Assembly: GCA_029204225.1 (NCBI GenBank)
Contig: MU832124.1
Location: forward strand, 1 to 64,000
Direction of reading: 5' to 3'
DNA: 64,000 nt
Source of the DNA: Diphasiastrum complanatum
Taxonomy: Eukaryota; Streptophyta; Lycopodiopsida; Lycopodiales; Lycopodiaceae
Shown: piece after piece, positions 25,458-61,964 of the stretch
How positions within the stretch are numbered: the stretch's first letter is position 1
Layout of the letters: each line of letters opens with the position of its first letter
Program-made: the position numbers and the translations under genes
The notes under the pieces: generated by a model
Database searches by the model: none
What the model was told of the DNA's origin: nothing
The model's input: only the letters and a program-made list of their open reading frames with translations

Positions 25458-25781
25458 GTAATGCCATTTGGATCATGCAATGCTCCTATACATACCAGAG
25501 ATTTATAAACAAAAGCTTCAACAACATTTTAGATGATGATTTAAAACTATTCATAGATGAGTTGTGACAGGGGCATCTAAGAAGAAAGGACATATTTATA
25601 TACTAAAAAATATTTTCAAAAGTGTGCTACTACATGTACTACTCTGAATGTGAACAAGTGTGTGTTTGGTGTGCCATATGGGGTACTATTAAGTCATGCC
25701 ATTAGCAAATATGGTATAGCCACAAATATAGAGAATTAGCTTTAATGGCTCTAACCATGATCACACAACTACAATCTTTCC
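25458..25781 (+). pseudogene. Gypsy RT relic, piece 2
   Basis: It resumes VMPFGSCNAPIHT right after the TSD, then a decayed LDD-containing stretch (FXDDDLKLFIDEL). NKCVFGVPYGVLLSHAIS and a QLQSF-like end follow. These are the RT motifs V-M-P-F-G-L-x-N-A-P and K-C-x-F-G-V. It ends at TTTCC (25777-25781), the TSD of B copy 1, and continues at 34727. Confidence 0.78.
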
Positions 25782-26479
25782 TGTAAAAGTACTGTACTTT
25801 AGGACCATAAATGGATCTACAAAAGATCCACAAGAGTGATTGGATGCTTGCTTAACAATCTATCAAAAAACTAGACACAAAAAAGTTGATCTAGATTGGC
25901 AATTTGACAAACAACAAGCATTAACAATCAAAAGCATTGATAAACATTGAAATACGAGCCCACACGTGTGTACTACAGGCTTTAGTACGGCCTTCAACCT
26001 GAGAAACAAGTAGAAATTGATTTGGTTTCATTTGGATCACAAAAACTCAATGTACATAGTGAACTAGCTTGAGATTGCCAATGAGCTCCAAAAATTTTCT
26101 TTCTCACTATGGAGAGAGGGAATACATAGCAAATTCGACTTCCTTCTTGAAGTTAGGTGGATTTCCAGCATGTAATAAGGAATTTAACTCACTCTCCTTG
26201 ACCTAAAATGAAACCCTAGTCTATTTCCTAGAGTTATGCTTGGTAGGTAGCTAGCTGGTCAAATTTTCACCTTAAACTTAGGTGTAGGTCCTATAAAGTA
26301 GGGATGACCACCAAATAGACATGACCAACTCTCTTGACTTGAACTAACCTACATTAGGATGGGTTTCCCATGTGGCATCATGGCCTCACATGTGTGGGAC
26401 CCACTTGTGTACACAATCTACACTATTCTACATGGTTTTTGATCAAGCTAGATTTGTCAATTTTTGGCAATTCTTCACA
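25782..26479 (-). repeat. 3' LTR of B copy 1
   Basis: 698 bp, beginning TGTAAAAG (TGTGAAAG in other copies) and ending TTCTTCACA. It has T at 25982 and the GGGACCC and CAATCTACAC variants, all shared with the right LTR of copy 2. CACACGTGTG lies at 25961-25970. Confidence 0.92.
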
Positions 26480-26683
26480 CTCCTCCTCAAATTTAGCTTG
26501 ATCTATTTACAACTCTCTTGATAGATCAATGAAAGCTTTTATAAGTGTCTAAAAAATCCAGCTACAAAGAATGAACTTTTGAGACTCCAATAGAGAATGA
26601 TGTCCATGAAGGATCTTTCACCACCTCTTAAAGGATCCCTTACAAGATGTTCCATAAATGTGTCTATATACATGTAGCACACT

Positions 26684-28870
26684 TCAAAAATAAACATCAT
26701 GCCAAGCCATGGATTCCAAGGAATTTTGTGCACTTGAAGATACATCAATTAAAATATTGAGTGCATAAATAATGTTGCCAAAGACAACTTGTCTTGCTTG
26801 ATCCATATGATTGAGCCTAGATGGCTCCATCTTGATACTCAAGGTTCTTCTTGGAGTCCTCGGGTCTTGAGCTTGCTCCTCCACTTGACTTGACTCCAAA
26901 CCATCAATGAATTGAATAAGGTGTTGATCCAAAGGTGCTTCTTCAAGTTTACAAATCTTCCACTCTTGAAAGATCACATTTCCACCATTGACAAATTCTT
27001 TGGCTGAAAACAAGTACATTCGACAATCTCTACTTGAAGAGCAAAACACTACCATTATTCCTATCATTGAAATAGGATAATCTTTGGTCCTTACATTTGA
27101 ATGATCATGTTCAAAGCATGTGGACCCAAATATTTCCAATACAAATGATGTTTCATCTTTTATGACACTATTCAAACTATTACAAAAATAGTTATCCAAT
27201 GAAATTGCTTTATCAACAACAAATGTAGATTTCAAAGCATCCCATTTCATTGTCTTGTCATACAAAGTAATAAACACCATGAATCTTAAAGGTAAGAAAC
27301 AAGTCACTTCATGTTTACTAATACTTTCCAAAAAGTATTCAAAGATAGTAGACTCTCCAATGCTCACCACCCTTGCAAGATGCACACTTGAATGGACAAT
27401 TTGCATGCAATTTGATGACTCGGACATTGTCATTGAGGACTCCCTTGGAACTCTCATGCTTTGAGGCTGATCCTCAAGATCTTCCTCCTTTTGATGCTCC
27501 TCCTCAATGCAAGCAAGATCACACTTTGCCAAGATCTCCTCTTGAGTGATCTCCTCCTTTGCCAAGCTCATTCTTTCAAAAGCAACACTAGATTCCAACC
27601 TAAACAATCTTCCATGTTTAAATCCCTTCGTAATGCAAACATCATTCTTCAAGATGAAGCAAACACCATGCTTAAAGTGGACATCCAAACCACTTTCTAA
27701 GAGTAAACCAACACTAAGCATATTCTTGGTGATTGATGGTACATAAAGGACATTTTCTAGGTCCATGCATTTTGAGGATTCTAGATACAAAGAGATGGTG
27801 CCAACATCATCTATCCTACACTCTTCATCATTTGCAGTAAAGACAAACTTTTTAGCATCATTGAAAGAGTGTAAGGTTGAGAAAAAGTCCTTTTCACAAG
27901 ACATGTGGGAGCTAGCCCCACTGTCGATCCACCAATTGTCTCTTGAATTGCTATTGCTTGTTGGTGAGGATGTAGATGCCATCAAGAATACATCTACTTC
28001 ATCCTCCTCCTCCTCCTTTGCAAGGTTTCCTTGTTTGTCCTCCTCCACTTGTGCTCTTAGCCTCTTGTAGCATTCAGATGCATAATGCCCCTTCTTTCCA
28101 CAAAAGAAGCATTTTTGCTTTGACTTGTCCTTTGAGCTTCATGCATCATCCTCTTCTTTTGCCTCCTTTGGATGCTTCTTCTTTCCATTGGTCTTATTTT
28201 TGCCCTTGAATGAGAAATTGGATTTCTCATCACCATCCTGCAAAGACAAGGAACTCATTCTAGATTTTGCATGGAGCATCCTACACTCTTCAGCCACTAA
28301 TACACTATGAAGTTTTTCTATAGTTGGCAAAGTGTCTTGGATGGCAAAACTTAGGACCAAATTTGCAAAGTCATCTCCTAGACCATTAAGGACAATTTGT
28401 ACAAGCTCTCCATCATGAATCTTCTCTCCTATGGAAGCCAACTCCCTATTTAGAGACTTGATTCTGAGTACATAATCCTGTGCACTCTCCTCACTTCTCC
28501 TCATGCTTTGCAAAATTTGATTTCTAAGCATAAGAACTCTAGAAGTGTTGCTAGACTCATAGATTGATTTTAAAGACTCCCAAGCCTCTTTAGCATTAGT
28601 ACAAGCTGATACTTCTCTCAACAAATCATTGCTCACATTCATCTTCACACAATGAAGTGCAAGCCTAGATCTCTTCTTGTATCTAGCTAACTCCTGTGCA
28701 CCTAGAGGTTCATCTTCATCTTCAATCAAGAACTCATACAGGTCTTGGAGCACCAAGAGTGACTCCATTCTAATCTTCCAAATAGCATAATTTGTAGAAT
28801 TCAACCTCTCACTAGCTTCTAGAAGGTATGCTCCAGCAGATCCCATCTTACTAGTGACTTCTACAAACAA
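26684..28870 (-). pseudogene. B copy 1 Gag-protease ORF with an opal stop
   Basis: This is the same protein as in copies 2 and 3, but Ser in the DASSSKD segment is changed from TCA to TGA (stop at 28139-28141, about codon 244). The frame is then open again from 28138 to 26684 and holds the zinc knuckle CFFCGKKGHYASEC and the protease WWIDSGASSHM. At the C-terminus copies 2 and 3 end HDV-stop, while copy 1 reads HDVYF before stopping. A truncated Gag of 243 residues lacking knuckle and protease would be made. The insertion is otherwise well preserved. Confidence 0.88.
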
Positions 28871-29462
28871 GAAATAGATTTGATTGACTTGAAACTCACA
28901 AAGGTCTCACACTTGCAGTGTTTCACTCAAATTTGATTTCTAATCCAACAAATGGACTTATAATCACTGTTCTATCACTCCCTCACAAAGCTGGAATGAA
29001 GATAAGATGAAATGAAAACTACTTTCAAACAAATCTTGCCAAGAAATGGATTTGATTGTCTCTAGAAACTCACTAAGGTCTCTCTCTTGTAGTTTTTCAC
29101 TCAAATTAGATTTCTAATCCAAAAAATGGACTTATAATCTCAGTTCTAGCACTCCCTCACAAAGTTGGAATGAAGATAAGATGATGTGAAATCTACTTAC
29201 AATCAAATCTTGCCAATTTTGGCTATTTTTGGACAAAAAAATGACTTAATCTCTTTCTTCATTCTTGGTGTACTTTGAATACCTGTTTTTAACCTTAATA
29301 GGACTTGAACTCAGCCTAGATTAATTAGATTCCATGAAACAAATTCAAATCTAATCAATGGCAAATGATCTTGGTAGATTATCCTAGGATCTCCGACAAA
29401 AATTACACCAATAGCTCACAAATTGAATTTTTTTTGGATCAAATGAATACCATGCATTAAAT

Positions 29463-30151
29463 TTGGAAGGCCCCTTTTGGAGTCCAAATTTGTGCAATTA
29501 ATATCTCATGTTGAAAAAGATTGGAAGTCATCGCCAATTTGTCAACATTAGACGAAGCCTAGCCATCAAAAAAGCGGCCTTCTGAATCTCTCTCTCTCTA
29601 GATATTGTTTGTCCTAGTTGTTACTTCTTGGAAGGCCCCTTTTGGAGTCCAGATTTCTTAGCATATTTACACTTTTGTGAAGTTACATCATCTTCATGAT
29701 GATTTTCTTATTGTGGTATAACATCTAGAAGGGTGATAGATCATAGGATAGAGTTTTTGTAGTCGAAATGTCTATTGGAAACCACATCACTTTAATGGCA
29801 AGTAAAATAGAGGAGTACCTTTGGATGGGCCTCATGAGAACATGAAAGTCAACATGGCTTCATTTGTCCCTCTAGAAAGTACAAAAAAGAATAGCATTAA
29901 AATATGTGTAGATTAAAAAGGTCAAGCAAACTTAACCACATTTTAAAATATGCTCTTTCTAGGATGAATGACCTTGCACATAGCTTAACTAGAGATAAAT
30001 AGTTCACTAAGATAGATATTAGAACAGTGTACTATCTTATGAAGATCAATTGAAAGAAGTACCAAAGATAGGTCTATAGACTCAATATGGCACTGCAAGC
30101 TTTTAATTTTATCATTTGTGTTAAGAAACATTGATTATGGCAAGGTCACAT
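29463..30151 (+). repeat. D block, copy 1 (689 bp duplicated flank)
   Basis: It matches 36427-37115 and appears identical by eye through its end at CACAT. It carries a decayed Gypsy RT stretch near 29900-30090 (FTKIDIRTVYYLMKI). It precedes B copies 2 and 3 in exactly the same way, so it is part of a segmental duplication and not of the B element. Confidence 0.9.
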
Positions 30152-30852
30152 TGTGAAAGTACTGTACTTTAGGACCATAAATGGATCTACAAAAGATCCA
30201 CAAGAGTGATTGGATGCTTGCTTAACAATCTATCAAAAAACTAGACACAAAAAAGTTGATCTAGATTGGCAATTTGACAAACAACAAGCATTAACAATCA
30301 AAAGCATTGATAAACATTGAAATCCGAGCCCACACGTGTGTACTACAGGCTGTAGTACGGCCTTCAACCTGAGAAACAAGTAGAAATTGATTTGGTTTCA
30401 TTTGGATCACAAAAACTCAATGTACATAGTGAACTAGCTTGAGATTGCCAATGAGCTCCAAAAATTTTCTATCTTCTCACTATGGAGAGAGGGAATACAT
30501 AGCAAATTCGACTTCCTTCTTGAAGTTAGGTGGATTTCCAGCATGTAATAAGGAAGTTAACTCACTCTCCTTGACTTAAAATGAAACCCTAGTCTATCTC
30601 CTAGAGTTATGCTTGGTAGGTAGCTAGTTGGTCAAATTTTCACCTTAAACTTAGGTGTAGGTCCTATAAAGTAGGGATGACCACCAAATAGACATGACCA
30701 ACTCTCTTGACTTGACCTAACCTACATTAGGATGGGTTTCCCATGTGGCATCATGGCCTCACATGTGTGGAACCCACTTGTGTACACAATTTACACTATT
30801 CTACATGGTTTTTGATCAAGCTAGATTTGCCAATTTTTGGCAATTCTTCACA
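30152..30852 (-). repeat. 3' LTR of B copy 2
   Basis: 701 bp. It appears the same as 37116-37816 by eye and has G at 30352, GGAACCC and CAATTTACAC. CACACGTGTG lies at 30331-30340. Confidence 0.95.
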
Positions 30853-30861
30853 CTCCTCCTC
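30853..30861 (-). other. Polypurine tract of B copy 2
   Basis: On the minus strand GAGGAGGAG directly precedes the 3' LTR. It primes plus-strand DNA synthesis. The same tract is present in copies 1 (26480) and 3 (37817). Confidence 0.85.
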
Positions 30862-31062
30862 AAATTTAGCTTGATCTATTTACAACTCTCTTGATAGATC
30901 AATGAAAGCTTTTAGAAGTGTCTAAAAAATCCAGCTACAAAGAAGGAACTTTTGAGACTCCAATAGATAATGATGTCCATGAAGGATCTTTCACCACCTC
31001 TTAGAGGATCCCTTACAAGATGTTCCATAAATGTGTCTATATACATGTAGCACACTTCAAAA

Positions 31063-33243
31063 CTAAACATCATGCCAAGCCATGGATTCCAAGGCATTTT
31101 GTGCACTTGAAGATACATCAATGAAAATATTAAGTGCATAAATAATGTTGCCAAAGACAACTTGTCTTGCTTGATCCATATGATTGAGCCTAGATGGCTC
31201 CATCTTGATACTCAAGGTTCTTCTTGGAGTCCTCGGGTCTTGAGCTTGCTCCTCCACTTGACTTGACTCCAAACCATCAATGAATTGAATAAGGTGTTGA
31301 TCCAAAGGTGCTTCTTCAAGTTTACAAATCTTCCACTCTTGAAAGATCACATTTCCACCATTGACAAATTCTTTGGCTGAAAATAAGTACATTCGACAAT
31401 CTCTACTTGAAGAGCAAAACACTACCATTATTCCTATCATTGAAATAGGATAATCTTTGGTCCTTACATTTGAATGATCATGTTCAAAGCATGTGGACCC
31501 AAATATTTCCAATACAAATGATGTTTCATCTTTTATGACACTATTCAAACTATTACAAAAATAGTTATCCAATGAAATTGCTTTATCAACAACAAATGTA
31601 GATTTCAAAGCATCCCATTTCATTGTCTTGTCATACAAAGTAATAAACACCATGAATCTTAAAGGTAAGAAACAAGTCACTTCATGTTTACTAATACTTT
31701 CCAAAAAGTATTCAAAGATAGTAGACTCTCCAATGCTCACCACCCTTGCAAGATGCACACTTGAATGGACAATTTGCATGCAATTTGATGACTCGGACAT
31801 TGTCATTGAGGACTCCCTTGGAACTCTCATGCTTTGAGGCTGATCCTCAAGATCTTCCTCCTTTTGATGCTCCTCCTCAATGCAAGCAAGATCACACTTT
31901 GCCAAGATCTCCTCTTGAGTGATCTCCTCCTTTGCCAAGCTCATTCTTTCAAAAGCAACACCAGCTTCCAACCTAAACAATCTTCCATGTTTAAATCCCT
32001 TCGTAATGCAAACATCATTCTTCAAGATGAAGCAAACACCATGCTTAAAGTGGACATCCAAACCACTTTCTAAGAGTAAACCAACACTAAGCATATTCTT
32101 GGTGATTGATGGTACATAAAGGACATTTTCTAGGTCCATGCATTTTGAGGATTCTAGATACAAAGAGATGGTGCCAACATCATCTATCCTACACTCTTCA
32201 TCATTTGCAGTAAAGACAAACTTTTTAGCATCATTGAAAGAGTGTAAGGTTGAGAAAAAGTCCTTTTCACAAGACATGTGGGAGCTAGCCCCACTGTCGA
32301 TCCACCAATTGTCTCTTGAATTGCTATTGCTTGTTGGTGAGGATGTAGATGCCATCAAGAATACATCTACTTCATCCTCCTCCTCCTCCTTTGCAAGGTT
32401 TCCTTGTTTGTCCTCCTCCACTTGTGCTCTTAGCCTCTTGTAGCATTCAGATGCATAATGCCCCTTCCTTCCACAAAAGAAGCATTTCTGCTTTGACTTG
32501 TCCTTTGAGCTTGATGCATCATCCTCTTCTTTGGCCTCCTTTGGATGCTTCTTCTTTCCATTGGTCTTCATTTTGCCCTTGAATGAGAAATTGGCTTTCT
32601 CATCACCATCCTGCAATGACAAGGAACTCATTCTAGATTTTGCATGGAGCATCCTACACTCTTCAGCCACTAATACACTGTGAAGTTTTTCTATAGTTGG
32701 CAAAGTGTCTTGGATGGCAAAACTTAGGACCAAATTTGCAAAGTCATCTCCTAGACCATTAAGGACAATTTGTACAAGCTCTCCATCATGAATCTTCTCT
32801 CCTATGGAAGCCAACTCCCTATTTAGAGACTTGATTCTGAGTACATAATCCTGTGCACTCTCCTCACTTCTCCTCATGCTTTGCAAAATTTGATTTCTAA
32901 GCATAAGAACTCTAGAAGTGTTGCTAGACTCATAGATTGATTTTAAAGACTCCCAAGCCTCTTTAGCATTAGTACAAGCTGATACTTCTCTCAACAAATC
33001 ATTGCTCACATTCATCTTCACACAATGAAGTGCAAGCCTAGATCTCTTCTTGTATCTAGCTAACTCCTGTGCACCTAGAGGTTCATCTTCATCTTCAATC
33101 AAGAACTCATACAGGTCTTGGAGCACCAAGAGTGACTCCATTCTAATCTTCCAAATAGCATAATTTGTAGAATTCAACCTCTCACTAGCTTCTAGAAGGT
33201 ATGCTCCAGCAGATCCCATCTTACTAGTGACTTCTACAAACAA
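31063..33243 (-). CDS. B copy 2 Gag-protease ORF, 726 codons, no RT
   Basis: Met9 (MGSAGAYLLEASERL) fits the Copia gag start of related elements better than Met1. Gag covers residues 9-250, and the zinc knuckle CFFCGRKGHYASEC is at 254-267. The aspartic protease motif WWIDSGASS has Asp316, with the protease reaching to about 425. Then an acidic stretch (KEEITQEEILAK) replaces the pre-integrase. The rest keeps only degenerate integrase C-terminal sequence (FGSTCFEHDHSNVRTKD, about residue 590). The HHCC zinc site and D,D35E triad are absent. No RT or RNase H follows. The protein could form particles and mature them but could not copy or integrate DNA, so a helper element would be needed. The length is about half of a full Copia polyprotein. 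Confidence 0.88.
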   Translation of the reverse strand: MFVEVTSKMGSAGAYLLEASERLNSTNYAIWKIRMESLLVLQDLYEFLIEDEDEPLGAQELARYKKRSRLALHCVKMNVSNDLLREVSACTNAKEAWESLKSIYESSNTSRVLMLRNQILQSMRRSEESAQDYVLRIKSLNRELASIGEKIHDGELVQIVLNGLGDDFANLVLSFAIQDTLPTIEKLHSVLVAEECRMLHAKSRMSSLSLQDGDEKANFSFKGKMKTNGKKKHPKEAKEEDDASSSKDKSKQKCFFCGRKGHYASECYKRLRAQVEEDKQGNLAKEEEEDEVDVFLMASTSSPTSNSNSRDNWWIDSGASSHMSCEKDFFSTLHSFNDAKKFVFTANDEECRIDDVGTISLYLESSKCMDLENVLYVPSITKNMLSVGLLLESGLDVHFKHGVCFILKNDVCITKGFKHGRLFRLEAGVAFERMSLAKEEITQEEILAKCDLACIEEEHQKEEDLEDQPQSMRVPRESSMTMSESSNCMQIVHSSVHLARVVSIGESTIFEYFLESISKHEVTCFLPLRFMVFITLYDKTMKWDALKSTFVVDKAISLDNYFCNSLNSVIKDETSFVLEIFGSTCFEHDHSNVRTKDYPISMIGIMVVFCSSSRDCRMYLFSAKEFVNGGNVIFQEWKICKLEEAPLDQHLIQFIDGLESSQVEEQAQDPRTPRRTLSIKMEPSRLNHMDQARQVVFGNIIYALNIFIDVSSSAQNALESMAWHDV

Positions 33244-33588
33244 GAAATAGATTTGATTGACTTGAAACTCACAAAGGTCTCACACTTGCAGTGTTTCACT
33301 CAAATTTGATTTCTAATCCAACAAATGGACTTATAATCACTGTTCTATCACTCCCTCACAAAGCTGGAATGAAGATAAGATGAAATGAAAACTACTTTCA
33401 AACAAATCTTGCCAAGAAATGGATTTGATTGTCTCTAGAAACTCACTAAGGTCTCTCTCTTGTAGTTTTTCACTCAAATTAGATTTCTAATCCAAAAAAT
33501 GGACTTATAATCTCAGTTCTAGCACTCCCTCACAAAGTTGGAATGAAGATAAGATGATGTGAAATCTACTTACAATCAAATCTTGCCA
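33241..33588 (-). repeat. Leader duplication in B elements (172 bp x 2)
   Basis: 33241-33412 and 33413-33588 are imperfect direct repeats lying between primer site and gag. Both contain TTTCACTCAAAT, GGACTTATAAT and CACTCCCTCACAAAG. The same pair occurs in copies 1 (about 28868-29215) and 3 (about 40205-40552), so it predates their spread. Confidence 0.85.
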
Positions 33589-34012
33589 ATTTTGGCTATT
33601 TTTGGACAAAAAAATGACTTAATCTCTTTCTTCATTCTTGGTGTACTTTGAAGACCTGTTTTTAACCTTAATAGGACTTGAACTCAGCCTAGATTAATTA
33701 GATTCCATGAAACAAATTCAAATCTAATCAATGGCAAATGATCTTGGTAGATTATCCTAGGATCTCCGCCAAAAATTACACCAATAGCTCACAAATTGAA
33801 TTTTTTTTGGATCAAATGAATACCATGCATTAAATGCAGGTTCAGAGGTTCCCACACATGTGGACAGTACGGATTTGGACCCCTACCAAGTTTGGGATCA
33901 AATCTCCTCACCAAAATCAAGATTCTAACTTGCCCTCTCAAGACTAGTTTTTAGCACCAAAACTTGCTAAAAATGGATTTGCATTAGATCAATGGCTTTT
34001 GCTCTTGTACTT

Positions 34013-34025
34013 GGCTCTGATACCA
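34013..34025 (-). other. Primer-binding site of B copy 2
   Basis: TGGTATCAGAGCC on the minus strand abuts the 5' LTR. It is complementary to initiator tRNA-Met. Copy 3 has TGGTATCAAAGCC at 40977-40989. Confidence 0.9.
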
Positions 34026-34726
34026 TGTGAAAGTACTGTACTTTAGGACCATAAATGGATCTACAAAAGATCCACAAGAGTGATTGGATGCTTGCTTAAC
34101 AATCTATCAAAAAACTAGACACAAAAAAGTTGATCTAGATTGGCAATCTGACAAACAACAAGCATTAACAATCAAAAGCATTGATAAACATTGAAATCCG
34201 AGCCCACACGTGTGTAATACAGGCTTTAGTACGGCCTTCAACCTGAGAAACAAGTAGAAATTGATTTGGTTTCATTTGGATCACAAAAACTCAATGTACA
34301 TAGTGAACTAGCTTGAGATTGCCAATGAGCTCCAAAAATTTTCTATCTTCTCACTATGGAGAGAGGGAATACATAGCAAATTCGACTTCCTTCTTGAAGT
34401 TAGGTGGATTTCCAGCATGTAATAAGGAAGTTAACTCACTCTCCTTGACTTAAAATGAAACCCTAGTCTATCTCCTAGAGTTATGCTTGGTAGGTAGCTA
34501 GTTGGTCAAATTTTCACCTTAAACTTAGGTGTAGGCCCTATAAAGTAGGGATGACCACCAAATAGACATGACCAACTCTCTTGACTTGACCTAAACTACA
34601 TTAGGATGGGTTTCCCATGTGGCATCATGGCCTCACATGTGTGGGACCCACTTGTGTACACAATCTACACTATTCTACATGGTTTTTTATCAAGCTAGAT
34701 TTGCCAATTTTTGGCAATTCTTCACA
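34026..34726 (-). repeat. 5' LTR of B copy 2
   Basis: 701 bp. It carries T at 34226, GGGACCC and CAATCTACAC, the haplotype of copy 1 rather than of its own partner LTR. CACACGTGTG lies at 34205-34214. Confidence 0.95.
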
Positions 34727-35130
34727 TTTCCTAGGGTCTAGTGGATACTATAGACTCTACATGAAAGCTTATGCAACTAGAGCCTATTTTCTTAATGATT
34801 TATTAAAAAGAGACATGGTATGTAAATGGACTGATGACTACGAAATAGCTTTCAAAGAGGTAAAGGAAGCTTTAGCTATGGCCACTATATCAAATCCCCT
34901 TTGCTATGGCAAAGAATATTTCATCTTTAATATTGCAACAAAGACACACATAAGCTATTACATGGCCTAAGTATAGGAGAAAAAATATCATCCTATAATA
35001 TTTGTTGGAAGGAAGCTTAACATCTTTGAGTTTAACTATAACAAAGTTGAAAACGCATGTCTTTACATAGCCTATGTTGCTGCAAAAAATTGATAGATAG
35101 AACCTAATCCAATGTCGCATAACTTTCTTC
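34727..35130 (+). pseudogene. Gypsy RT-RNase H relic, piece 3
   Basis: Directly after the LTR the frame reads FLGSSGYYRLYMKAY, LNDLLKRDMVCKWTDD, FKEVKEAL and FNIATKTHISYYMA. This is the Ty3/Gypsy thumb and RNase H start (F-L-G-x-x-x-Y-Y-R, W-T-x-x-x-x-x-A-F-x-x-L-K). After a stop, GRKLNIFEFNYNKVENACLYIAYV matches the next RNase H block. Piece 2 ends QLQSF at 25781 and the shared TTTCC closes the gap, so the two pieces were one gene before the B insertion. The 117-codon frame at 34617 that starts inside the LTR is spurious. Confidence 0.82.
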
Positions 35131-36206
35131 ACCAGAAATGAAGGAGTGACATTGATGATAAAGAAGTTAGGGCCCTCGAATAGGCTATTTGAGTGGATCG
35201 TATCCCTTCAAAAGTTCTCTTACAAATTGAAGAGTAAACCACCTAGGCTTTAAGGTTGAATGATTGCAATCTAGAAGTAGAGAGTAGTACTTGGAAAGTA
35301 GCGGTCTGTGGGCTAAGTGGAGTACATCCCTCCACCCATCCTCCTTGCTCCACAACCACCTATAAAATCAAATCGACTTTATAGAAAAGCCAACAACTCT
35401 TTAAAGTACACTGATCTAGATTTGAAAGTTTTAGCAGTGAAGTTGTTAAAAATTATAAGCTCAGCTTAAAGTTTGCAAAATCTTAAAGCTTAAAACACTT
35501 TCTAAGTTATAAAACTTACAAAAAACTTGTAACTCAAGCTTGAATAAGCTTGTAAGAAAATCATCAAATTAAGTCTTGAATAAAGGGAAGAGGGGAGTGG
35601 ATGCGTACTCCCATAGGCTGTACCAATAGCAAGTACCAGTCGGTGGGCTAAGTGGAGTACATCCCTCCACCACCCTTTTGCTCTTCTTGACCTCCCTTCA
35701 TCCTCCTTGCAACCACCTATAAAATCAAACCGACTTTATAGAAAAGCCAACAACACTCTAAAGTACATTGATCTAGATTTGAAAGCTTTAGCTAGGACTA
35801 TTACTTAGGTGAAGTATTGCAATCATGAAGATCAATTGCAAATTCAAGAATTGGCTTGCTAGACTTTATTATTATTATTTATGCATTAATTTACATACTA
35901 CATAAGCGTTAAGGCAAGGACCTCCTCTCCACAAAATTACATCGAGCAATTTTACATTTTAACAAGTATATCATATTGTCTTTTTCAATATATGGTATAA
36001 TGCAGTTTTATATGGTGGGACTTAGCAACTCTAACAAATAGGGTAGGGTAGGTCCACAAGGCCTAAGTGCACCTAGAAGGCTTTGGTGACCTCATCTTAC
36101 TATTAACCACACATATTGTTATGCCTTGAATTCAATTCATTGTGAACATGGTATTTGGTGGGTACACTTAATAGACCTTGACAATTACATCAACATGGTG
36201 AAAATG
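35131..36206. other. Non-coding stretch with a direct repeat
   Basis: 35301-35429 and 35639-35785 are imperfect direct copies sharing GGGCTAAGTGGAGTACATCC and AAAATCAAACCGACTTTATA-like sequence. A local duplication is likely. No gene is seen up to 36206. Confidence 0.7.
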
Positions 36207-36616
36207 TCCACATTTGTGCAATTAATATCTCGTGTTGAAAAAGCTTGAAAGTCATCTCCAATTTGTCAACATTAGACGAAGTCTAGCCATCAAAAAAGCC
36301 TTTTGAATTTTCAACGCTTCAGTGCCCACATGGCCCAGTAGAAATTCACCACAATAACCTAACTATAAACTCAGGTGGCCTTCTGAATCTCTCTCTCTAG
36401 ATATTGTCTCTCCTAGTTGTTACTTCTTGGAAGGCCCCTTTTGGAGTCCAAATTTGTGCAATTAATATCTCATGTTGAAAAAGATTGGAAGTCATCGCCA
36501 ATTTGTCAACATTAGACGAAGCCTAGCCATCAAAAAAGCGGCCTTCTGAATCTCTCTCTCTCTAGATATTGTTTGTCCTAGTTGTTACTTCTTGGAAGGC
36601 CCCTTTTGGAGTCCAG
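36207..36616 (+). repeat. Local duplication at the start of the D block
   Basis: 36207-36446 and 36447-36616 repeat the same order: TTTGTGCAATTAATATCTC, then CCAATTTGTCAACATTAGAC, then the TC-rich CTGAATCTCTCTC, then GGAAGGCCCCTTTTGGAGTCC. The first copy has about 70 extra bp in the middle. Confidence 0.85.
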
Positions 36617-37115
36617 ATTTCTTAGCATATTTACACTTTTGTGAAGTTACATCATCTTCATGATGATTTTCTTATTGTGGTATAACATCTAGAAGGGTGA
36701 TAGATCATAGGATAGAGTTTTTGTAGTCGAAATGTCTATTGGAAACCACATCACTTTAATGGCAAGTAAAATAGAGGAGTACCTTTGGATGGGCCTCATG
36801 AGAACATGAAAGTCAACATGGCTTCATTTGTCCCTCTAGAAAGTACAAAAAAGAATAGCATTAAAATATGTGTAGATTAAAAAGGTCAAGCAAACTTAAC
36901 CACATTTTAAAATATGCTCTTTCTAGGATGAATGACCTTGCACATAGCTTAACTAGAGATAAATAGTTCACTAAGATAGATATTAGAACAGTGTACTATC
37001 TTATGAAGATCAATTGAAAGAAGTACCAAAGATAGGTCTATAGACTCAATATGGCACTGCAAGCTTTTAATTTTATCATTTGTGTTAAGAAACATTGATT
37101 ATGGCAAGGTCACAT
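36427..37115 (+). repeat. D block, copy 2
   Basis: 689 bp matching 29463-30151. It ends at the CACAT that abuts the LTR of B copy 3. Here the sequence to its left is continuous with related repeats, so this looks like the original location. Confidence 0.9.
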
Positions 37116-37816
37116 TGTGAAAGTACTGTACTTTAGGACCATAAATGGATCTACAAAAGATCCACAAGAGTGATTGGATGCTTGCTTAACAATCTATCAA
37201 AAAACTAGACACAAAAAAGTTGATCTAGATTGGCAATTTGACAAACAACAAGCATTAACAATCAAAAGCATTGATAAACATTGAAATCCGAGCCCACACG
37301 TGTGTACTACAGGCTGTAGTACGGCCTTCAACCTGAGAAACAAGTAGAAATTGATTTGGTTTCATTTGGATCACAAAAACTCAATGTACATAGTGAACTA
37401 GCTTGAGATTGCCAATGAGCTCCAAAAATTTTCTATCTTCTCACTATGGAGAGAGGGAATACATAGCAAATTCGACTTCCTTCTTGAAGTTAGGTGGATT
37501 TCCAGCATGTAATAAGGAAGTTAACTCACTCTCCTTGACTTAAAATGAAACCCTAGTCTATCTCCTAGAGTTATGCTTGGTAGGTAGCTAGTTGGTCAAA
37601 TTTTCACCTTAAACTTAGGTGTAGGTCCTATAAAGTAGGGATGACCACCAAATAGACATGACCAACTCTCTTGACTTGACCTAACCTACATTAGGATGGG
37701 TTTCCCATGTGGCATCATGGCCTCACATGTGTGGAACCCACTTGTGTACACAATTTACACTATTCTACATGGTTTTTGATCAAGCTAGATTTGCCAATTT
37801 TTGGCAATTCTTCACA
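37116..37816 (-). repeat. 3' LTR of B copy 3
   Basis: 701 bp. It has G at 37316 and the GGAACCC and CAATTTACAC variants. It is followed by the polypurine tract complement CTCCTCCTC. CACACGTGTG lies at 37295-37304. Confidence 0.95.
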
Positions 37817-38026
37817 CTCCTCCTCAAATTTAGCTTGATCTATTTACAACTCTCTTGATAGATCAATGAAAGCTTTTAGAAGTGTCTAAAAAATCCAGCT
37901 ACAAAGAAGGAACTTTTGAGACTCCAATAGATAATGATGTCCATGAAGGATCTTTCACCACCTCTTAGAGGATCCCTTACAAGATGTTCCATAAATGTGT
38001 CTATATACATGTAGCACACTTCAAAA

Positions 38027-40207
38027 CTAAACATCATGCCAAGCCATGGATTCCAAGGCATTTTGTGCACTTGAAGATACATCAATGAAAATATTAAGTG
38101 CATAAATAATGTTGCCAAAGACAACTTGTCTTGCTTGATCCATATGATTGAGCCTAGATGGCTCCATCTTGATACTCAAGGTTCTTCTTGGAGTCCTCGG
38201 GTCTTGAGCTTGCTCCTCCACTTGACTTGACTCCAAACCATCAATGAATTGAATAAGGTGTTGATCCAAAGGTGCTTCTTCAAGTTTACAAATCTTCCAC
38301 TCTTGAAAGATCACATTTCCACCATTGACAAATTCTTTGGCTGAAAACAAGTACATTCGACAATCTCTACTTGAAGAGCAAAACACTACCATTATTCCTA
38401 TCATTGAAATAGGATAATCTTTGGTCCTTACATTTGAATGATCATGTTCAAAGCATGTGGACCCAAATATTTCCAATACAAATGATGTTTCATCTTTTAT
38501 GACACTATTCAAACTATTACAAAAATAGTTATCCAATGAAATTGCTTTATCAACAACAAATGTAGATTTCAAAGCATCCCATTTCATTGTCTTGTCATAC
38601 AAAGTAATAAACACCATGAATCTTAAAGGTAAGAAACAAGTCACTTCATGTTTACTAATACTTTCCAAAAAGTATTCAAAGATAGTAGACTCTCCAATGC
38701 TCACCACCCTTGCAAGATGCACACTTGAATGGACAATTTGCATGCAATTTGATGACTCGGACATTGTCATTGAGGACTCCCTTGGAACTCTCATGCTTTG
38801 AGGCTGATCCTCAAGATCTTCCTCCTTTTGATGCTCCTCCTCAATGCAAGCAAGATCACACTTTGCCAAGATCTCCTCTTGAGTGATCTCCTCCTTTGCC
38901 AAGCTCATTCTTTCAAAAGCAACACTAGCTTCCAACCTAAACAATCTTCCATGTTTAAATCCCTTCGTAATGCAAACATCATTCTTCAAGATGAAGCAAA
39001 CACCATGCTTAAAGTGGACATCCAAACCACTTTCTAAGAGTAAACCAACACTAAGCATATTCTTGGTGATTGATGGTACATAAAGGACATTTTCTAGGTC
39101 CATGCATTTTGAGGATTCTAGATACAAAGAGATGGTGCCAACATCATCTATCCTACACTCTTCATCATTTGCAGTAAAGACAAACTTTTTAGCATCATTG
39201 AAAGAGTGTAAGGTTGAGAAAAAGTCCTTTTCACAAGACATGTGGGAGCTAGCCCCACTGTCGATCCACCAATTGTCTCTTGAATTGCTATTGCTTGTTG
39301 GTGAGGATGTAGATGCCATCAAGAATACATCTACTTCATCCTCCTCCTCCTCCTTTGCAAGGTTTCCTTGTTTGTCCTCCTCCACTTGTGCTCTTAGCCT
39401 CTTGTAGCATTCAGATGCATAATGCCCCTTCTTTCCACAAAAGAAGCATTTTTGCTTTGACTTGTCCTTTGAGCTTGATGCATCATCCTCTTCTTTTGCC
39501 TCCTTTGGATGCTTCTTCTTTCCATTGGTCTTATTTTTTCCCTTGAATGAGAAATTGGATTTCTCATCACCATCCTGCAAAGACAAGGAACTCATTCTAG
39601 ATTTTGCATGGAGCATCCTACACTCTTCAGCCACTAATACACTATGAAGTTTTTCTATAGTTGGCAAAGTGTCTTGGATGGTAAAACTTTGGACCAAATT
39701 TGCAAAGTCATCTCCTAGACCATTAAGGACAATTTGTACAAGCTCTCCATCATGAATCTTCTCTCCAATGGAAGCCAACTCCCTATTTAGAGACTTGATT
39801 CTGAGTACATAATCCTGTGCACTCTCCTCACTTCTCCTCATGCTTTGCAAAATTTGATTTCTAAGCATAAGAACTCTAGAAGTGTTGCTAGACTCATAGA
39901 TTGATTTTAAAGACTCCCAAGCCTCTTTAGCATTAGTACAAGCTGATACTTCTCTCAACAAATCATTGCTCACATTCATCTTCACACAATGAAGTGCAAG
40001 CCTAGATCTCTTCTTGTATCTAGCTAACTCCTGTGCACCTAGAGGTTCATCTTCATCTTCAATCAAGAACTCATACAGGTCTTGGAGCACCAAGAGTGAC
40101 TCCATTCTAACCTTCCAAATAGCATAATTTGTAGAATTCAACCTCTCACTAGCTTCTAGAAGGTATGCTCCAGCAGATCCCATCTTACTAGTGACTTCTA
40201 CAAACAA
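38027..40207 (-). CDS. B copy 3 Gag-protease ORF, 726 codons
   Basis: Intact and the same length as copy 2, with knuckle CFFCGKKGHYASEC and protease WWIDSGASSHM. It differs from copies 1 and 2 in gag (NLVQSFTIQ for NLVLSFAIQ, WKVRMES for WKIRMES). It matches copy 2 but not copy 1 near the C-terminus (NIFIDVSSSAQNALE). Two independent-looking intact 726-codon frames suggest either recent origin or selection on Gag-protease. It lies in a segmental duplication, so the count of independent insertions is two rather than three. Confidence 0.88.
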   Translation of the reverse strand: MFVEVTSKMGSAGAYLLEASERLNSTNYAIWKVRMESLLVLQDLYEFLIEDEDEPLGAQELARYKKRSRLALHCVKMNVSNDLLREVSACTNAKEAWESLKSIYESSNTSRVLMLRNQILQSMRRSEESAQDYVLRIKSLNRELASIGEKIHDGELVQIVLNGLGDDFANLVQSFTIQDTLPTIEKLHSVLVAEECRMLHAKSRMSSLSLQDGDEKSNFSFKGKNKTNGKKKHPKEAKEEDDASSSKDKSKQKCFFCGKKGHYASECYKRLRAQVEEDKQGNLAKEEEEDEVDVFLMASTSSPTSNSNSRDNWWIDSGASSHMSCEKDFFSTLHSFNDAKKFVFTANDEECRIDDVGTISLYLESSKCMDLENVLYVPSITKNMLSVGLLLESGLDVHFKHGVCFILKNDVCITKGFKHGRLFRLEASVAFERMSLAKEEITQEEILAKCDLACIEEEHQKEEDLEDQPQSMRVPRESSMTMSESSNCMQIVHSSVHLARVVSIGESTIFEYFLESISKHEVTCFLPLRFMVFITLYDKTMKWDALKSTFVVDKAISLDNYFCNSLNSVIKDETSFVLEIFGSTCFEHDHSNVRTKDYPISMIGIMVVFCSSSRDCRMYLFSAKEFVNGGNVIFQEWKICKLEEAPLDQHLIQFIDGLESSQVEEQAQDPRTPRRTLSIKMEPSRLNHMDQARQVVFGNIIYALNIFIDVSSSAQNALESMAWHDV

Positions 40208-40989
40208 GAAATAGATTTGATTGACTTGAAACTCACAAAGGTCTCACACTTGCAGTGTTTCACTCAAATTTGATTTTTAATCCAACAAATGGACTTATAA
40301 TCACTGTTCTATCACTCCCTCACAAAGCTGGAATGAAGATAAGATGAAGTGAAAACTACTTTCAAACAAATCTTGCCAAGAAATGGATTTGATTGTCTCT
40401 AGAAACTCACTAAGGTCTCTCTCTTGTAGTTTTTCACTCAAATTAGATTTCTAATCCAACAAATGGACTTATAGTCTCAGTTCTAGCACTCCCTCACAAA
40501 GTTGGAATGAAGATAAGATGATGTGAAATCTACTTACAATCAAATCTTGCCAATTTTGGCTATTTTTGGACAAAAAAATGACTTAATCTCTTTCTTCCTT
40601 CTTGGTGTACTTTGAAGACCTGTTTTTAACCTTAATAGGACTTGAACTCAGCCTAGATTAATTAGATTCCATGAAACAAATTCAAATCTAATCAATGGCA
40701 AATGATCTTGGTAGATTATCCTAGGATCTCCACCAAAAATTACACCAACAGCTCACAAATTAAATTTTTTCTGGATCAAATGAATACCATGCATTAAATG
40801 TAGGTTCAGAGGTGCCCACACATGTGGACAGTACGGATTTGGACCCCTACCAAGTTTGGGATCAAATCTCCTCACCAAAATCAAGATTGTAGCTTGCCCT
40901 CTCAATACTAGCTTTTAGCACCAAAACTTGCTAAAAATGGATTTGCATTAGATCAATGGCTTATGCTCTTGTACTTGGCTTTGATACCA

Positions 40990-41461
40990 TGTGAAAGTAC
41001 TGTACTTTAGGACCATAAATGGATCTACAAAAGATCCACAAGAGTGATTGGATGCTTGCTTAACAGTCTATCAAAAAACTAGACACAAAAAAGTTGATCT
41101 AGATTGGCAATTTGACAAACAACAAGCATTAACAATCAAAAGCATTGATAAACATTGAAATACGAGCCCACACGTGTGTACTACAGGCTGTAGTACGGCC
41201 TTCAACCTGAGAAACAAGTAGAAATTGATTTGGTTTCATTTGGATCACAAAAACTCAATGTACATAGTGAACTAGCTTGATATTGCCAATGAGCTCCAAA
41301 AAATTTCTATCTTCTCACTATGGAGAGAGGGAATACATAGCAAATTCGACTTCCTTCTTGAAGTTAGGTGGATTTCCAGCATGTAATAAGGAAGTTAACT
41401 CACTCTCCTTGACTTAAAATGAAACCCTAGTCTATTTCCTAGAGTTATGCTTGGTAGGTAG
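40990..41461 (-). repeat. 5' LTR of B copy 3, left part
   Basis: It continues at 47328-47469 on the other side of element A. The break point is within GGTAGGTAG, and GGTAG is the duplicated target. Confidence 0.93.
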
Positions 41462-42114
41462 TGTGAAAAACTCAGATCCAAAAGATGCTAAAGTTTCATA
41501 AAGATCTTGGCCATGGAAGTTATGCACATCTAGATTGAAAAAATGATAGAAATTGTGATGTTAAGCATACTAAACATCAACTAAACATCAAAATCTGATC
41601 ATAAGCTTCCACAAACAGAAACTTGCTGTCCCTGTCCGTACTTCAGAGCCTACAACCTGCATTTCACACGTGTGAAGCCATAGCAACAAAGAAATCACAA
41701 TTCTAGTGGCTAGAATGCAAGATATGAACAAAAAAGTGAGAGAGAAGAAGATGGACCTTCAAAGAGCATAACATTCATTCAATAGAATGAAAATGAGATG
41801 TGTACATACTCGTGGAGATGGCTATTTATAGCAGCCATAGTGCCTCTTGGCCACTTGTCTTATGATAGGCTAAAATTGGGGTCCAATAGGATTCACCCAT
41901 ATACCTAGAAATTTGGTCAAATAGGAATGCACCAAATTATGAGCCAATAGAAGAGCTCCACACTCGACCTCCTCTAATTAATGTGACCTCAAAAGTAGTG
42001 TACACATACTTTGGGCCTCTACATACATGTATGAACCTATCTCTAACTTTTATTTGGCCATAGGCCTACAAAATCTCAAGTTAGGAAAATACTACTAGTT
42101 GACAATTTTTCACA
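41462..42114 (-). repeat. 3' LTR of element A
   Basis: 653 bp, TGTGAAAAAC to ATTTTTCACA on the plus strand. It carries CACACGTGTG at 41665-41674. Confidence 0.97.
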
Positions 42115-45100
42115 CTCCCTCTTCAACTAGTTTTAGCATAGATTTAGAAAGTACACCAAGACTTGTTCTATGCTTGAAAAATAAGTCCTTTCCCAATGCT
42201 TTGGTAAAGATATCAGCCACACATTCCTTTGATGGGACATGTTCAAGCTTGATCTCTTTTGCCAACACTTGTTCTCTCACAAAATGGTAAGCCACCTCGA
42301 TATGTTTGCTCCTTGCATGGAAAACCGGATTGCTTGCTAGACTTTGGGCTGAAAGGTTGTCACAAAAGATGATTGGACTCTCTGAAAAATCCAGCAAATG
42401 AAGCTCCATAATCATCCTCTTGATCCACACCATCTCCTTTGTGCATGATGTCAAAGCTTTGTACTCGGCCTCACTAGAAGAAAGTGATATAGTTGCTTGT
42501 TTCTTCGACATCCATGAGATAGCTCCATCACCTATGAAAATAGCATGTGCATTTATGGATTTTCTATCCATAAGGTCTCCTGCAAAATCTGAATCTGAAA
42601 AACCAAATAAGTTAGGTGATGAGCCTCTATAAACAATGCCAAAATCTTTTGTTCCCGAGATGTATCTCAAGATCCTCTTTCCTAGTTTCCAATGTTCTAT
42701 GCTAGGATCTTGCATGAATTGGCTTAATCTACCAACACAATAAGATAAATCAGGTCTTGTGATGGTTAGATATATAAGAGAACCTATTAGCTTCCTATAG
42801 AGAGTAATGTCCTCGAAGGATCTTTCATTACCTCTTATAGTTAGCTTTACATGTGATTCCATAGGTGTATCAATAGGATTTGCATCTACCATATGAAATC
42901 TATTGAGAATAGAAATAGCATACTTCTCTTGTGAAATAAAAGTGATTTGAGAAGTTCTAATTACTTCTATTCCTAAGATATAGCTCAAAAGACCAAGATC
43001 ATGCACTTCAAATTCCTTTTTTAGTGCTTTCTTGATATCTTCTATATCTTCCTTGTTCCCTCCACTTAAAATAATGTCATCCACATAAATTAGAAGGATT
43101 GTAACATCATTAGCACTAATTCTAAAGTAAAGTGAATGATCATACTCACTCATAGTGAAGTTTTGAGAAAGTAGAAAAGAGTTAAGCCTAGCATACCAAC
43201 TCCTTGGTGCTTGCTTAAGACCATACAAACTTTTTTGTAGAAAACACACATGATTAGGCTTGCTATGAGAAACATAGCTCTCGGGTTGCTCCATGTAGAC
43301 TTCCTCTTCAAGATCACCATTCAAGAAAGCATTAGAAATGTCTAATTGCCAAAGATCCCATCCATAAAGAGTTGCAAGGGAAATGATTACTCTTATGCTC
43401 ACCATCTTTGCCACGGGTGCAAAGGTTTCCTCATAGTCAATGCCATGCTCTTGAGCATAACCTTTAGCCACCAACCTTGCCTTCAACTTGTTGATAGATC
43501 CATCTTGATTTGTCTTTACCTTGAAGATCCATTTGCATCCAATTGCACTTTTGCCCTTTGGAAGCTCCACCAATCTCCATGTGTTGTTCTTCATAAGTGC
43601 TTCAAACTCAAGATCCATTGCTTGGATCCATTCCTCTTCTTGCCTTGCTTCATCTACACATGAAGGTACATCAAAAGAAGTTAGGAAAGCATAGTTGGAT
43701 CCATCCACCACTTGCTTACCTTTGCCATCATAAGTGAGCCTTGAGGGTTTCACTTTATGCCTTGGAGTTCTCCTTGGAATTTGACTTGAAGAGGCTTCTT
43801 CAACATCCACATCCAATGTGTCATCAACTCCATTGTCATCAAGCACATTAGTTGCAACAACACCATCATCACTTGAAACAACTTTTGGAATGTTACTTTC
43901 ATCAAAAATGACATCCCTACTTGTGAACACTTTCTTGATTGAAGGAACATAAATCCTATATGCTTTGCTTACTTCACTATAACCAACAAAAATGCCCTTT
44001 CTTGAAGATGGATCCTCCTTAGTTCTATCATCAAGAGTAATGTTGAAGTAGCAAATGCATCCAAAAGTTCTTAGAAACTTGACATTAGGCTTCGTACCAA
44101 ACAAAGCTTCAAAAGGGGTTTTTCCTTCCAATACAACACTTGGCCATCTATTGCATAGGAAATTTGCACACAACAAAGCATCACTCCAAAAAGGTTTAGG
44201 AAGATTAGCATTCAATCTCATTGCCTTTGCACTCTCACACAAGGTTCTATTCTTCCTCTCGGCCACTCCATTTTGTTGTGGTGTTCTTGGACATGTGTAC
44301 TCCCTCTTGATCCCATGCTCATCGCAAAAGGCTTTGAATTTGTTAGAAATGTATTCACCACCATTGTCGCTCCTCAAGCATTTGATTTTGGTTGTAAATT
44401 GAGTCTCAATAGCAACTTTGAACTTGACAAACACATCAAACACCTCATCCTTGCTCTTTAGTAGATAAACCCAACAAAATCTACTAAAATCATCAATGAA
44501 AGTTACATACATCTTAGCACCTCCATTGCTAATTGTAGTAACACCATGAATATCCGAATGCAAGAGAGAAAAAGGCATCTTAGATCTAGATATAGATCTA
44601 GTATATGGCAATCTATGTGATTTAGACAAAGCACATTCTTCACAAACATGATTCAAGCAAGTAAGAGACTTGGGAAGTCCCCTTACTACCTCCTTTTTGG
44701 CTATTACCTCCAAGGCCTTGTAGTTGAGATGTCCCATCCTTTTATGCCATACCTCTTGAATTGACATTTGTTCATTTGCCATGCATCCAACTTGGTTAGC
44801 AACAACACATGCATCAAGCTTGAACAATTTCCCTTGCCTTTTCCCTTTTGCAATGATACTACACCCCTTTTTGATCAAGCAAGCATCACCATCAAACTCA
44901 ACTTTGAATCCTTTGTCAAGCATTTGGCTTACACTAAGTAAGTTCTTGGTAATGGATGGAATGAGCAAAACATCTTTCAATTCTATATTCCTATTTGTAG
45001 AAAGTGAAATAGGAATTGTGCCAATCCCCTTGATTGCACACTCACCATCATTTGCGGTATAGATTACCTTCCTATCACCATCAAATGCCATTAAAGATGA

Positions 45101-46060: not shown

Positions 46061-46657
46061 GTTGCAATGATTGATCTCTGATCTTTGACCTGTTCCAATG
46101 CACTAAGCACTCTCTTGAATCAACAAATGAAACACAAGAAGAAATCACAAAGATTTGGAACCTAAAACCTTACTTTTTCTCTCTTTTCCTCACTTTTTCC
46201 TTAATTTTAGCCACTAGTTTTATGATTTCTTGATCAAACCAAGACCAAACCTCAATATACTTGCTTTTCCCTCACTCCTAAGATTGAAATACACTCTTGA
46301 ATCATTCAGCAAACTGAAAATCAGAGGGTTACATCAATTTTGAAGTTTTTGACATGAAGAAGCAAGAAATTGAATCAAAAAACTATATGCTAGAATGGAA
46401 AACTAATAGGATCTTGTTGGATCTTGCATCTCCCTCTTTCCAAAACAATTTTTGTCTCCTTATTCTGATAAGTAGAGAGGGAATTCGTCCTACTTCAATT
46501 GAAATGCATACAAATGATGTTTTGATCACAAAGATCCAATTTCTACACATAAATCAACAAGATTTTTAGCTAGAAACTTGATTGGAATGCTACAAAAGCA
46601 AACTCGCCCACAAATCTCTTCTAAATCTGGCAAAACCTGCACATTTGGCCGCCTAAT

Positions 46658-46669
46658 GCTCTGATACCA
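46658..46669 (-). other. Primer-binding site of element A
   Basis: TGGTATCAGAGC on the minus strand lies immediately inside the 5' LTR and is complementary to initiator tRNA-Met. Confidence 0.92.
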
Positions 46670-47322
46670 TGTGAAAAACTCAGATCCAAAAGATGCTAAA
46701 GTTTCATAAAGATCTTGGCCATGGAAGTTATGCACATCTAGATTGAAAAAATGATAGAAATTGTGATGTTAAGCATACTAAACATCAACTAAACATCAAA
46801 ATCTGATCATAAGCTTCCACAAACAGAAACTTGCTGTCCCTGTCCGTACTTCAGAGCCTACAACCTGCATTTCACACGTGTGAAGCCATAGCAACAAAGA
46901 AATCACAATTCTAGTGGCTAGAATGCAAGATATGAACAAAAAAGTGAGAGAGAAGAAGATGGACCTTCAAAGAGCATAACATTCATTCAATAGAATGAAA
47001 ATGAGATGTGTACATACTCGTGGAGATGGCTATTTATAGCAGCCATAGTGCCTCTTGGCCACTTGTCTTATGATAGGCTAAAATTGGGGTCCAATAGGAT
47101 TCACCCATATACCTAGAAATTTGGTCAAATAGGAATGCACCAAATTATGAGCCAATAGAAGAGCTCCACACTCGACCTCCTCTAATTAATGTGACCTCAA
47201 AAGTAGTGTACACATACTTTGGGCCTCTACATACATGTATGAACCTATCTCTAACTTTTATTTGGCCATAGGCCTACAAAATCTCAAGTTAGGAAAATAC
47301 TACTAGTTGACAATTTTTCACA
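46670..47322 (-). repeat. 5' LTR of element A
   Basis: 653 bp. It is the promoter-bearing copy and appears identical to the 3' LTR. Confidence 0.97.
47031..47038 (-). promoter_or_regulatory. TATA box of element A
   Basis: TATAAATA on the minus strand within CTGCTATAAATAGCC. Transcription would start about 30 bp further left (near 47000). The palindrome CACACGTGTG at 46873-46882 would then lie in the transcribed leader. The sister TATA in the 3' LTR is near 41823. Confidence 0.75.
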
Positions 47323-47327
47323 GGTAG

Positions 47328-47469
47328 CTAGTTGGTCAAATTTTCACCTTAAACTTAGGTGTAGGTCCTATAAAGTAGGGATAACCACCAAATAGACATG
47401 ACCAACTCTCTTGACTTGACCTAACCTACATTAGGATGGGTTTTCCCATGTAGCATCATGGCCTCACAT
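47328..47469 (-). repeat. 5' LTR of B copy 3, right part, truncated
   Basis: It resumes CTAGTTGGTCAAATTTTCACC after the GGTAG duplication and ends at CCTCACAT. The last 110 bp or so of the LTR, including its TTCTTCACA end, are missing. Confidence 0.9.
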
Positions 47470-51148: not shown

Positions 51149-51162
51149 CTCCTCCTAAAAAA

Positions 51163-59130: not shown

Positions 59131-59575
59131 GTTTACTCATAGATTGTCAAAACCCCTAGTTGGGTCTTATGTGAGAAAATACTTCTTGTAGGTAGCAATG
59201 GTAGCTAACAATGATAGAGATTATGATTAACAATCAAGTGCTCTCACCCAATGAATGGAAACTCCAATAACAAATAGTACTTCTGCATACATTCAATGAC
59301 ATGTGACAAACAATTGTTAACGATTACCCATTCTACAACAACTCCACCCGTAATACCATTTTTTGTAACTACCCATAACTGATTAGCTATGGAAGCACTT
59401 TACTTGTAAGACATTGTAAACAAACACTTACGAATGCTTGGAATATCATAAGCATCTGTAAAAATTTCCTAATGCCACTTAACATGACTAACTTGATGTG
59501 AGTCCATATGCCTCGTCCATCTTTACACAAAGAAAGCAGTAATATTATGGCACAAAATTGGCCAAGTACAATGTG
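59131..59575. other. No gene seen
   Basis: AT-rich sequence with no recognisable motif. The frame at 59387-59650 on the minus strand runs into the LTR fragment and has no family signature. Confidence 0.4.

Positions 59576-61020: not shown

Positions 61021-61964
<944 letters not shown>

Follow-up and report, generated by a model that had tools for sequence, protein, structure and literature searches.

The locus considered here lies in a 64,000-nucleotide window (positions 1 to 64,000 of contig MU832124.1, hereafter C606, a contig of 86,018 bases) from Diphasiastrum complanatum. It contains three copies, in direct order, of a 4.6-kb Copia-type long terminal repeat (LTR) retrotransposon that codes on the minus strand and has LTRs of 701 bases. 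Very probably, two insertions of this element, X with the target-site duplication (TSD) TTTCC at site A and Y with the TSD CACAT at site B, recombined by non-allelic homologous recombination (NAHR). This would have produced the triple arrangement on C606, trimmed by a later deletion, and a single X/Y element on the other haplotype, C17. An earlier reading made from the sequence alone (the sequence-only reading) had explained the whole arrangement by unequal crossing-over plus one deletion. That explanation accounts for copies 1 to 3 but not for everything at the locus: it must be joined by a nested Copia element, by an inversion of 12.2 kb that both haplotypes share, by at least one conversion patch in the exchange interval and probably by a separate exchange on C17.

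Copy 2 is a recombinant of X and Y, as the distribution of shared variants confirms. In a three-way alignment of copies 1 to 3, numbered by copy 2 and with each indel run counted as one site, copy 2 agrees with copy 3 at all 20 sites of 30152-31132, where copy 1 differs. Across 32718-33835 there are 13 copy-3-only sites, at which copies 1 and 2 agree, and 2 copy-1-only sites. The interval between these blocks (31133-32717) holds 2 copy-1-only, 10 copy-2-only and 1 copy-3-only sites. A model with a single switch leaves two misfits among the 38 copy-1-only and copy-3-only sites, and 0 of 20,000 label shuffles fit as well; copy 2 is therefore Y on its left and X on its right. One switch of similarity between copies 1 and 3 was the pattern anticipated by the sequence-only reading, and its crossover bracket of 31135-32720 is correct to a few bases. 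In copy 2 the switch interval also contains a private patch, and the C17 element is a less clean mosaic, with two exceptional sites.

The TSDs of copy 2 do not match each other, and each recurs as the TSD at the remote end of a neighbouring copy. Copy 1 has TTTCC on its left and copy 2 has it on its right, and CACAT precedes both copy 2 and copy 3, exactly where the swap of TSDs had been described. The flank is duplicated as well: 29463-31383 and 36427-38347 are identical over all 1921 bases. In a genome search in which 40 of 121 candidates were scored, the duplicated left flank of site B was found at two places only, besides weak matches. This intervening flank is duplicated on C606 and lost on C17. 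The join at 29462/29463 is blunt, as had been proposed, with microhomology absent on both sides; by comparison, the deletion there amounts to 2591 bases.

Site A lies within a Gypsy reverse transcriptase gene that is decayed, with stops and frame changes. The proposal that positions 25781 and 34727 rejoin one such gene is borne out by motif order, which is continuous over both flanks from QLQS-F to LGSSGYYR, motifs that we take to be those of Gypsy reverse transcriptase. The open pieces of the left flank gave no Pfam match. A right-flank piece matched RT_RNaseH_2 at E 0.039, under the Pfam cut-off, and comparison of the flank pieces with solved structures gave a weak reverse transcriptase/RNase H match (E 0.013). 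The 40 matches listed for the left flank are itself, C17 at 99%, and 38 others at 69-82%. Continuity through site A was examined at seven loci (L015-L021), of which L015 is the C17 allele itself. In a related Gypsy relic on C4 (L016; 73% identical on the left, 82% on the right) the site is uninterrupted and TTTCC occurs once. Two relics on C1 (L019 and L020) run through the site with overlapping matches, L021 continues past it after a short unaligned gap, and L017 and L018 end 15 bases before it, without a right-hand match. At site B, the relics among the loci examined match the left flank and not the right; as no relic bridges the two, site B rests on its TSDs.

The right TSD of Y, which the sequence-only reading does not give, was recovered at 59570-59574, read on the minus strand, so Y is flanked by CACAT on both sides and each of the ancestral insertions X and Y has two matching TSDs. 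Its displacement may be ascribed to the inversion of 47470-59662, which would have cut the right LTR of copy 3 after Y inserted; the inverted arrangement is common to C606 and C17. The same LTR holds the nested Copia, which has identical LTRs of 653 bases and an uninterrupted frame of 1330 residues. It is missing on C17, where the empty site is clean. Since its LTRs are identical and the other haplotype is without it, this is a very recent insertion.

C606 is the second haplotype of C17:23.18-23.26 Mb, which was found through the left flank of site A (C17:23204044-23204367, 99%). The two are collinear, with gaps, from C17 position 23178687 through the end of the 100 kb compared, and their flanks differ at 120 of 53,348 bases (11 pieces). 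C17 has a single element, whose left end joins the left flank of site A and whose right end is the right LTR of copy 3, with the same right flank. The left part carries the allele of copy 1 at 16 of 20 copy-1-only sites. On the right, the allele of copy 3 is present at 9 of 13 copy-3-only sites and, within 33836-34497, at 14 of the 16 sites that separate copies 2 and 3. The segment between sites A and B was not found in the 100 kb of C17 compared. A genome search with part of it (35800-37115), in which 40 of 121 candidates were scored, gave 41 matches, two being C606 and the rest short or at most 80% identical; among these matches, in one genome, the part is complete only on C606. With one element, an X left end, a Y right end and the A-B segment lost, C17 is a deletion-type product of X and Y. 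C606, with three copies X, Y/X and Y and a duplicated flank, is the duplication-type product. The crossing-over between X and Y that had been proposed thus gains backing from the uninterrupted relic on C4, the right TSD of Y and the single X/Y element of C17.

These features suggest the following course. X would have inserted at TTTCC in the Gypsy relic, and Y, in the same orientation, at CACAT about 2.4 kb downstream. On the C606 haplotype, an unequal exchange of Y with X may have given X, Y/X, Y, after which a deletion would have removed 1.7 kb of flank together with the right end of copy 1. For the C17 haplotype, recombination of X with Y would leave a single X/Y element, with loss of the A-B segment. 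The sequence itself shows the flanks, the TSDs, the single switch of copy 2 and a one-copy haplotype whose left end is from X and right end from Y. We infer the order of events, recombination and not assembly as the maker of the arrangement, a sister or homolog as partner, and two separate exchanges behind the two haplotypes.

The LTR haplotypes had been offered as proof on the strength of three markers. The letters are as described, but one marker of the three is clean. LTR position 640 (CAATCTACAC) is this sole cleanly diagnostic marker, separating X, in the left LTRs of copy 1 and C17 and the right LTR of copy 2, from Y, in the left LTR of copy 2 and both LTRs of copy 3. At LTR position 620 (GGGACCC) the G also occurs in the right LTR of copy 3, and at position 201 (25982/34226) the T shared by the left LTR of copy 1 and the right LTR of copy 2 gives way to G in the left LTR of C17, itself X-type. 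"Proven by LTR haplotypes" is therefore too strong; the proof is carried by the flanks and TSDs. Some observations weigh against NAHR between X and Y. At LTR positions 173 and 447 the left LTR of copy 1 groups with the right LTR of copy 3. Pair similarity also runs the wrong way: the left LTR of copy 1 has 13 differences in 698 bases from the right LTR of copy 2, and the two LTRs of copy 2 have only 8 in 701. Three further points concern the haplotypes. No two-copy haplotype was found in the one genome searched, C606 is short next to the 49.6-Mb C17, and at 32726 and 32803 C17 carries the allele of copies 1 and 2, so that it is not a clean one-switch mosaic.

The switch on C17 lies between 31132 and 33147: sites left of 31132 are X-type, and Y-type alleles stand at 32718 and, for the most part, from 33147 onward. 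Six of six dispersed copies have the allele of copy 3 at both 32726 and 32803 (as does L003 at 32803), so neither is a private mutation of copy 3. The corresponding positions in copy 3, 39690 and 39767, have the family allele, unlike copies 1 and 2 and C17. A second small patch may thus lie here, either in copy 3 or on C17. The C17 exchange would fall either within 32804-33146, the base at 32718 having another cause, or left of 32718, with a small converted tract on C17 or copy 3. The polarity of the right-hand exceptions at 33510 and 33807 is not readable.

One possibility would be that the C606 duplication and the C17 deletion are reciprocal products of one exchange. Their structures are complementary, and the intervals possible for the exchange points overlap (31133-32717 for copy 2, 31133-33146 for C17). 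Nevertheless, this is unlikely. The duplicated parts differ at only 2 of 3039 bases (a count that omits the middle zone; 4 of 4123 with the non-patch middle), fewer than the 13 of 2099 by which the same element differs between haplotypes, or 10 of 1670 once a stretch whose type is doubtful is set aside (p about 4e-4 and 1e-3); the patch was omitted from both counts. The same contrast against the flanks (120/53,348) is not significant (p 0.07 and 0.11). In addition, copy 2 and C17 share the allele of copy 1 at 32726 and 32803, which is unexpected of complementary products from a single clean exchange. Given these two sites and the comparison of differences inside the duplication with those between haplotypes, duplication and deletion are probably separate exchanges, the duplication being the younger, although later conversion could mimic this signal. 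The overlap of the switch intervals needs no special cause, since copies 1 and 3 show a single difference in the 1335 bases of 31133-32467, compared with 35 in 2099 bases on both sides (p 8e-7), and since exchange points between human HERV-H elements cluster in regions of high identity, according to the parts of PMC4195946 drawn on here.

An assembly artefact, whether a false duplication on C606 or a collapsed repeat on C17, is very improbable. Besides the short contig, the 1921 bases identical between the duplicated units favour it. Ten sites, however, set copy 2 apart from copies 1 and 3, nine of them also from C17, and up to 33835 eight sites are unique to copy 1 and five to copy 3 (two of which are family alleles) against the other three elements. 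The nested Copia occurs on C606 alone and a 3-kb insertion on C17 alone, and the join at 29462/29463 connects non-homologous sequences, unlike a repeat collapse.

The private patch of copy 2, absent from the sequence-only reading, requires an explanation of its own. Of the ten sites private to copy 2, eight fall within 213 bases, and 0 of 100,000 random placements were as tight. C17 has the copy-2 allele at none of nine readable private sites, the tenth lying in a 10-base deletion. A 42-base stretch of the patch recurs with at most one mismatch at 1171 places in the genome, some of which may be relatives, against 0 for the reversed control; exact matches number seven, one being copy 2. The other six, all dispersed copies, were picked by this stretch, which itself holds three of the eight patch sites. 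Two of them, L033 and L034, both on C15, carry 7 of 8 patch alleles, L032 carries 6, and L035, L036 and L037 carry 5 each; at the five sites outside the stretch, L033 and L034 carry 4. Inside the patch, L033 has 3 differences from copy 2 and 11 from copy 1 in 258 bases, and outside it is equidistant from both (8/551 on the left, 4/283 on the right). A 73% relative on the same contig has 4 of the 8 alleles (probability by chance about 0.003, assuming 0.09 per site).

Because the alleles recur together in dispersed copies, the patch is family sequence. It may be read as a gene-conversion tract, either passed from a dispersed copy to copy 2, or retained from the old sequence of X while copy 1 was overwritten by Y. 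More tentatively, the exchange may have used three templates, passing from Y through about 213-250 bases of a dispersed fourth copy to X and leaving a bystander imprint in the crossover interval. A burst of new mutations arising where the break occurred would fit the crowding of eight sites into 213 bases close to the right edge of the crossover interval, and also the T at 32617, an allele absent from every other copy examined; with 7 of 8 alleles together in two C15 copies and 4 of 8 in the 73% relative, it is highly improbable, and a fresh mutation cluster was rejected. Reverse transcription with a switch of template is known to yield mosaic LTR elements, but such an origin for copy 2 was rejected as next to impossible, since a fresh insertion has matching TSDs, unlike the CACAT and TTTCC of copy 2, and since 689 bases of flank are duplicated along with it.

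The gag and Pol beta-barrel domains, the 5-bp TSD and the TG...CA LTRs identify the element as Copia-type. An open frame of 738 residues is present in copies 2 and 3. In copy 2 (31066-33279), the domain scan of this frame found Copia gag (PF14223, 5.6e-24) and the Pol beta-barrel (PF22936, 1.3e-21), and neither rve nor RVT_2; the open-frame listing has no second frame of at least 120 residues lying wholly inside copy 2. As copy 2 is without an integrase and reverse transcriptase of its own, the family is non-autonomous. An initiator tRNA-Met primer site and a DSGA protease motif are presumably present, and the label plant-type presumes this primer site together with the Copia content. A genome DNA search with the LTR gave no match, by a method that skips very common words.

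Other features were also noted. The second half of the frame at 31066-33279 has an SH3-type match only, below cut-off, and inside each copy two units of about 175 bases, 88% alike, stand in tandem (28868-29216 in copy 1). A solo LTR of a related family (24767-25457, about 70% identical to the LTR of the three copies) lies in opposite orientation in the same Gypsy relic, with the TSD GTAAT at 24762-24766 and 25458-25462; a 94% relative is at C606:81.9-82.6 kb (L002 7883-8585). Simple-repeat arrays at 1186-1509 and 61270-61380 have inverted recurrences within the same contig. On C17, the haplotype-specific insertion at 23206747-23209833 (L026) is about 3.08 kb long and lies between GATGC repeats, with TG...CA ends and internal tandem repeats; no long terminal repeat was found in it, and it appears to resemble a long solo LTR.

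Table 1. Features of the recombined locus, in window coordinates.
Feature	Positions	Strand	Basis
Decayed Gypsy reverse transcriptase relic, left flank of site A (VMPFG..., CVFGV..., QLQS-F)	25458..25776	+	
TTTCC, left TSD of X, site A	25777..25781	+	
Copy 1 = X, truncated; left LTR 25782-26479	25782..29462	-	alignment
Blunt join of the proposed later deletion, which would have removed the remainder of X with 1.7 kb of flank	29462..29463	.	
Exact repeat of the left flank of site B at 36427-37115, with CACAT at its end	29463..30151	+	
CACAT, left of copy 2 (end of duplicated flank)	30147..30151	+	
Copy 2, complete, Y (left)/X (right); LTRs 30152-30852, 34026-34726	30152..34726	-	alignment
Interval with the exchange point of copy 2; copies 1 and 3 nearly identical	31133..32717	.	
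Patch private to copy 2 (8 sites within 213 bases), most alleles also in dispersed family copies	32468..32680	.	
TTTCC, right TSD of X, right of copy 2	34727..34731	+	
Segment between sites A and B (RNase H relic right of A to reverse transcriptase relic left of B)	34732..37115	+	
CACAT, left TSD of Y, left of copy 3	37111..37115	+	
Copy 3 = Y; left LTR 37116-37816; right LTR from 40990, interrupted after 41461	37116..41461	-	
Nested Copia in right LTR of copy 3; TSD GGTAG 41457-41461 / 47323-47327	41462..47322	-	
Right LTR of copy 3 continued (including GGTAG repeat), to inversion breakpoint	47323..47469	-	
Inverted last 88 bases of right LTR of copy 3 (59575-59662) and right TSD CACAT (59570-59574, read on minus)	59570..59662	+	

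Complex elements with three LTRs arise by unequal recombination. Such elements are tabulated in PMC5379124, where neighbours share an LTR, whereas here whole copies are separated by a duplicated flank; in the portion of that paper used, unequal recombination is named only as a cause of genome shrinkage. That unequal homologous recombination gives rise to solo LTRs and to elements without matching TSDs is standard, as the relevant passages of PMC7251063 set out. For Arabidopsis TRIM elements, the corresponding passages of PMC545599 suspect inter-element LTR recombination, and report no sign of inter-element recombination in the tested Copia-like, Gypsy-like and Athila representatives. A close likeness is to NAHR between HERV-H elements in man, where, in the parts of PMC4195946 (2014) cited above, two LTR elements recombine to give deletions and reciprocal duplications and exchange points cluster at high identity, as here. 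The events described there reach about 1 megabase and were seen in patients, unlike the roughly 7 kb in a plant-type genome, with both forms in one assembly, reported here. The patch resembles the short tracts from another subfamily described in array copies of CRM1TR (at least 71 and up to about 200 bases, in the text of PMC3648361 referred to); those are Gypsy satellite monomers, whereas the present tract lies in the crossover interval of a full-length Copia-type copy. A literature search without most subscription literature found no paper on reciprocal NAHR duplication and deletion between LTR retrotransposons across haplotypes.

That LTR elements recombine non-allelically is well established; at this one locus both outcomes are clear. 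A recombined element such as copy 2 appears intact save for its unmatched TSDs, and in such copies LTR-pair similarity may misassign partners and hence ages. The locus is a compact natural record: one assembly holds both product types, each on its own haplotype, and the TSDs, flanks and exchange intervals can all be read. It shows unequal exchange adding as well as removing DNA in a repeat-rich genome.

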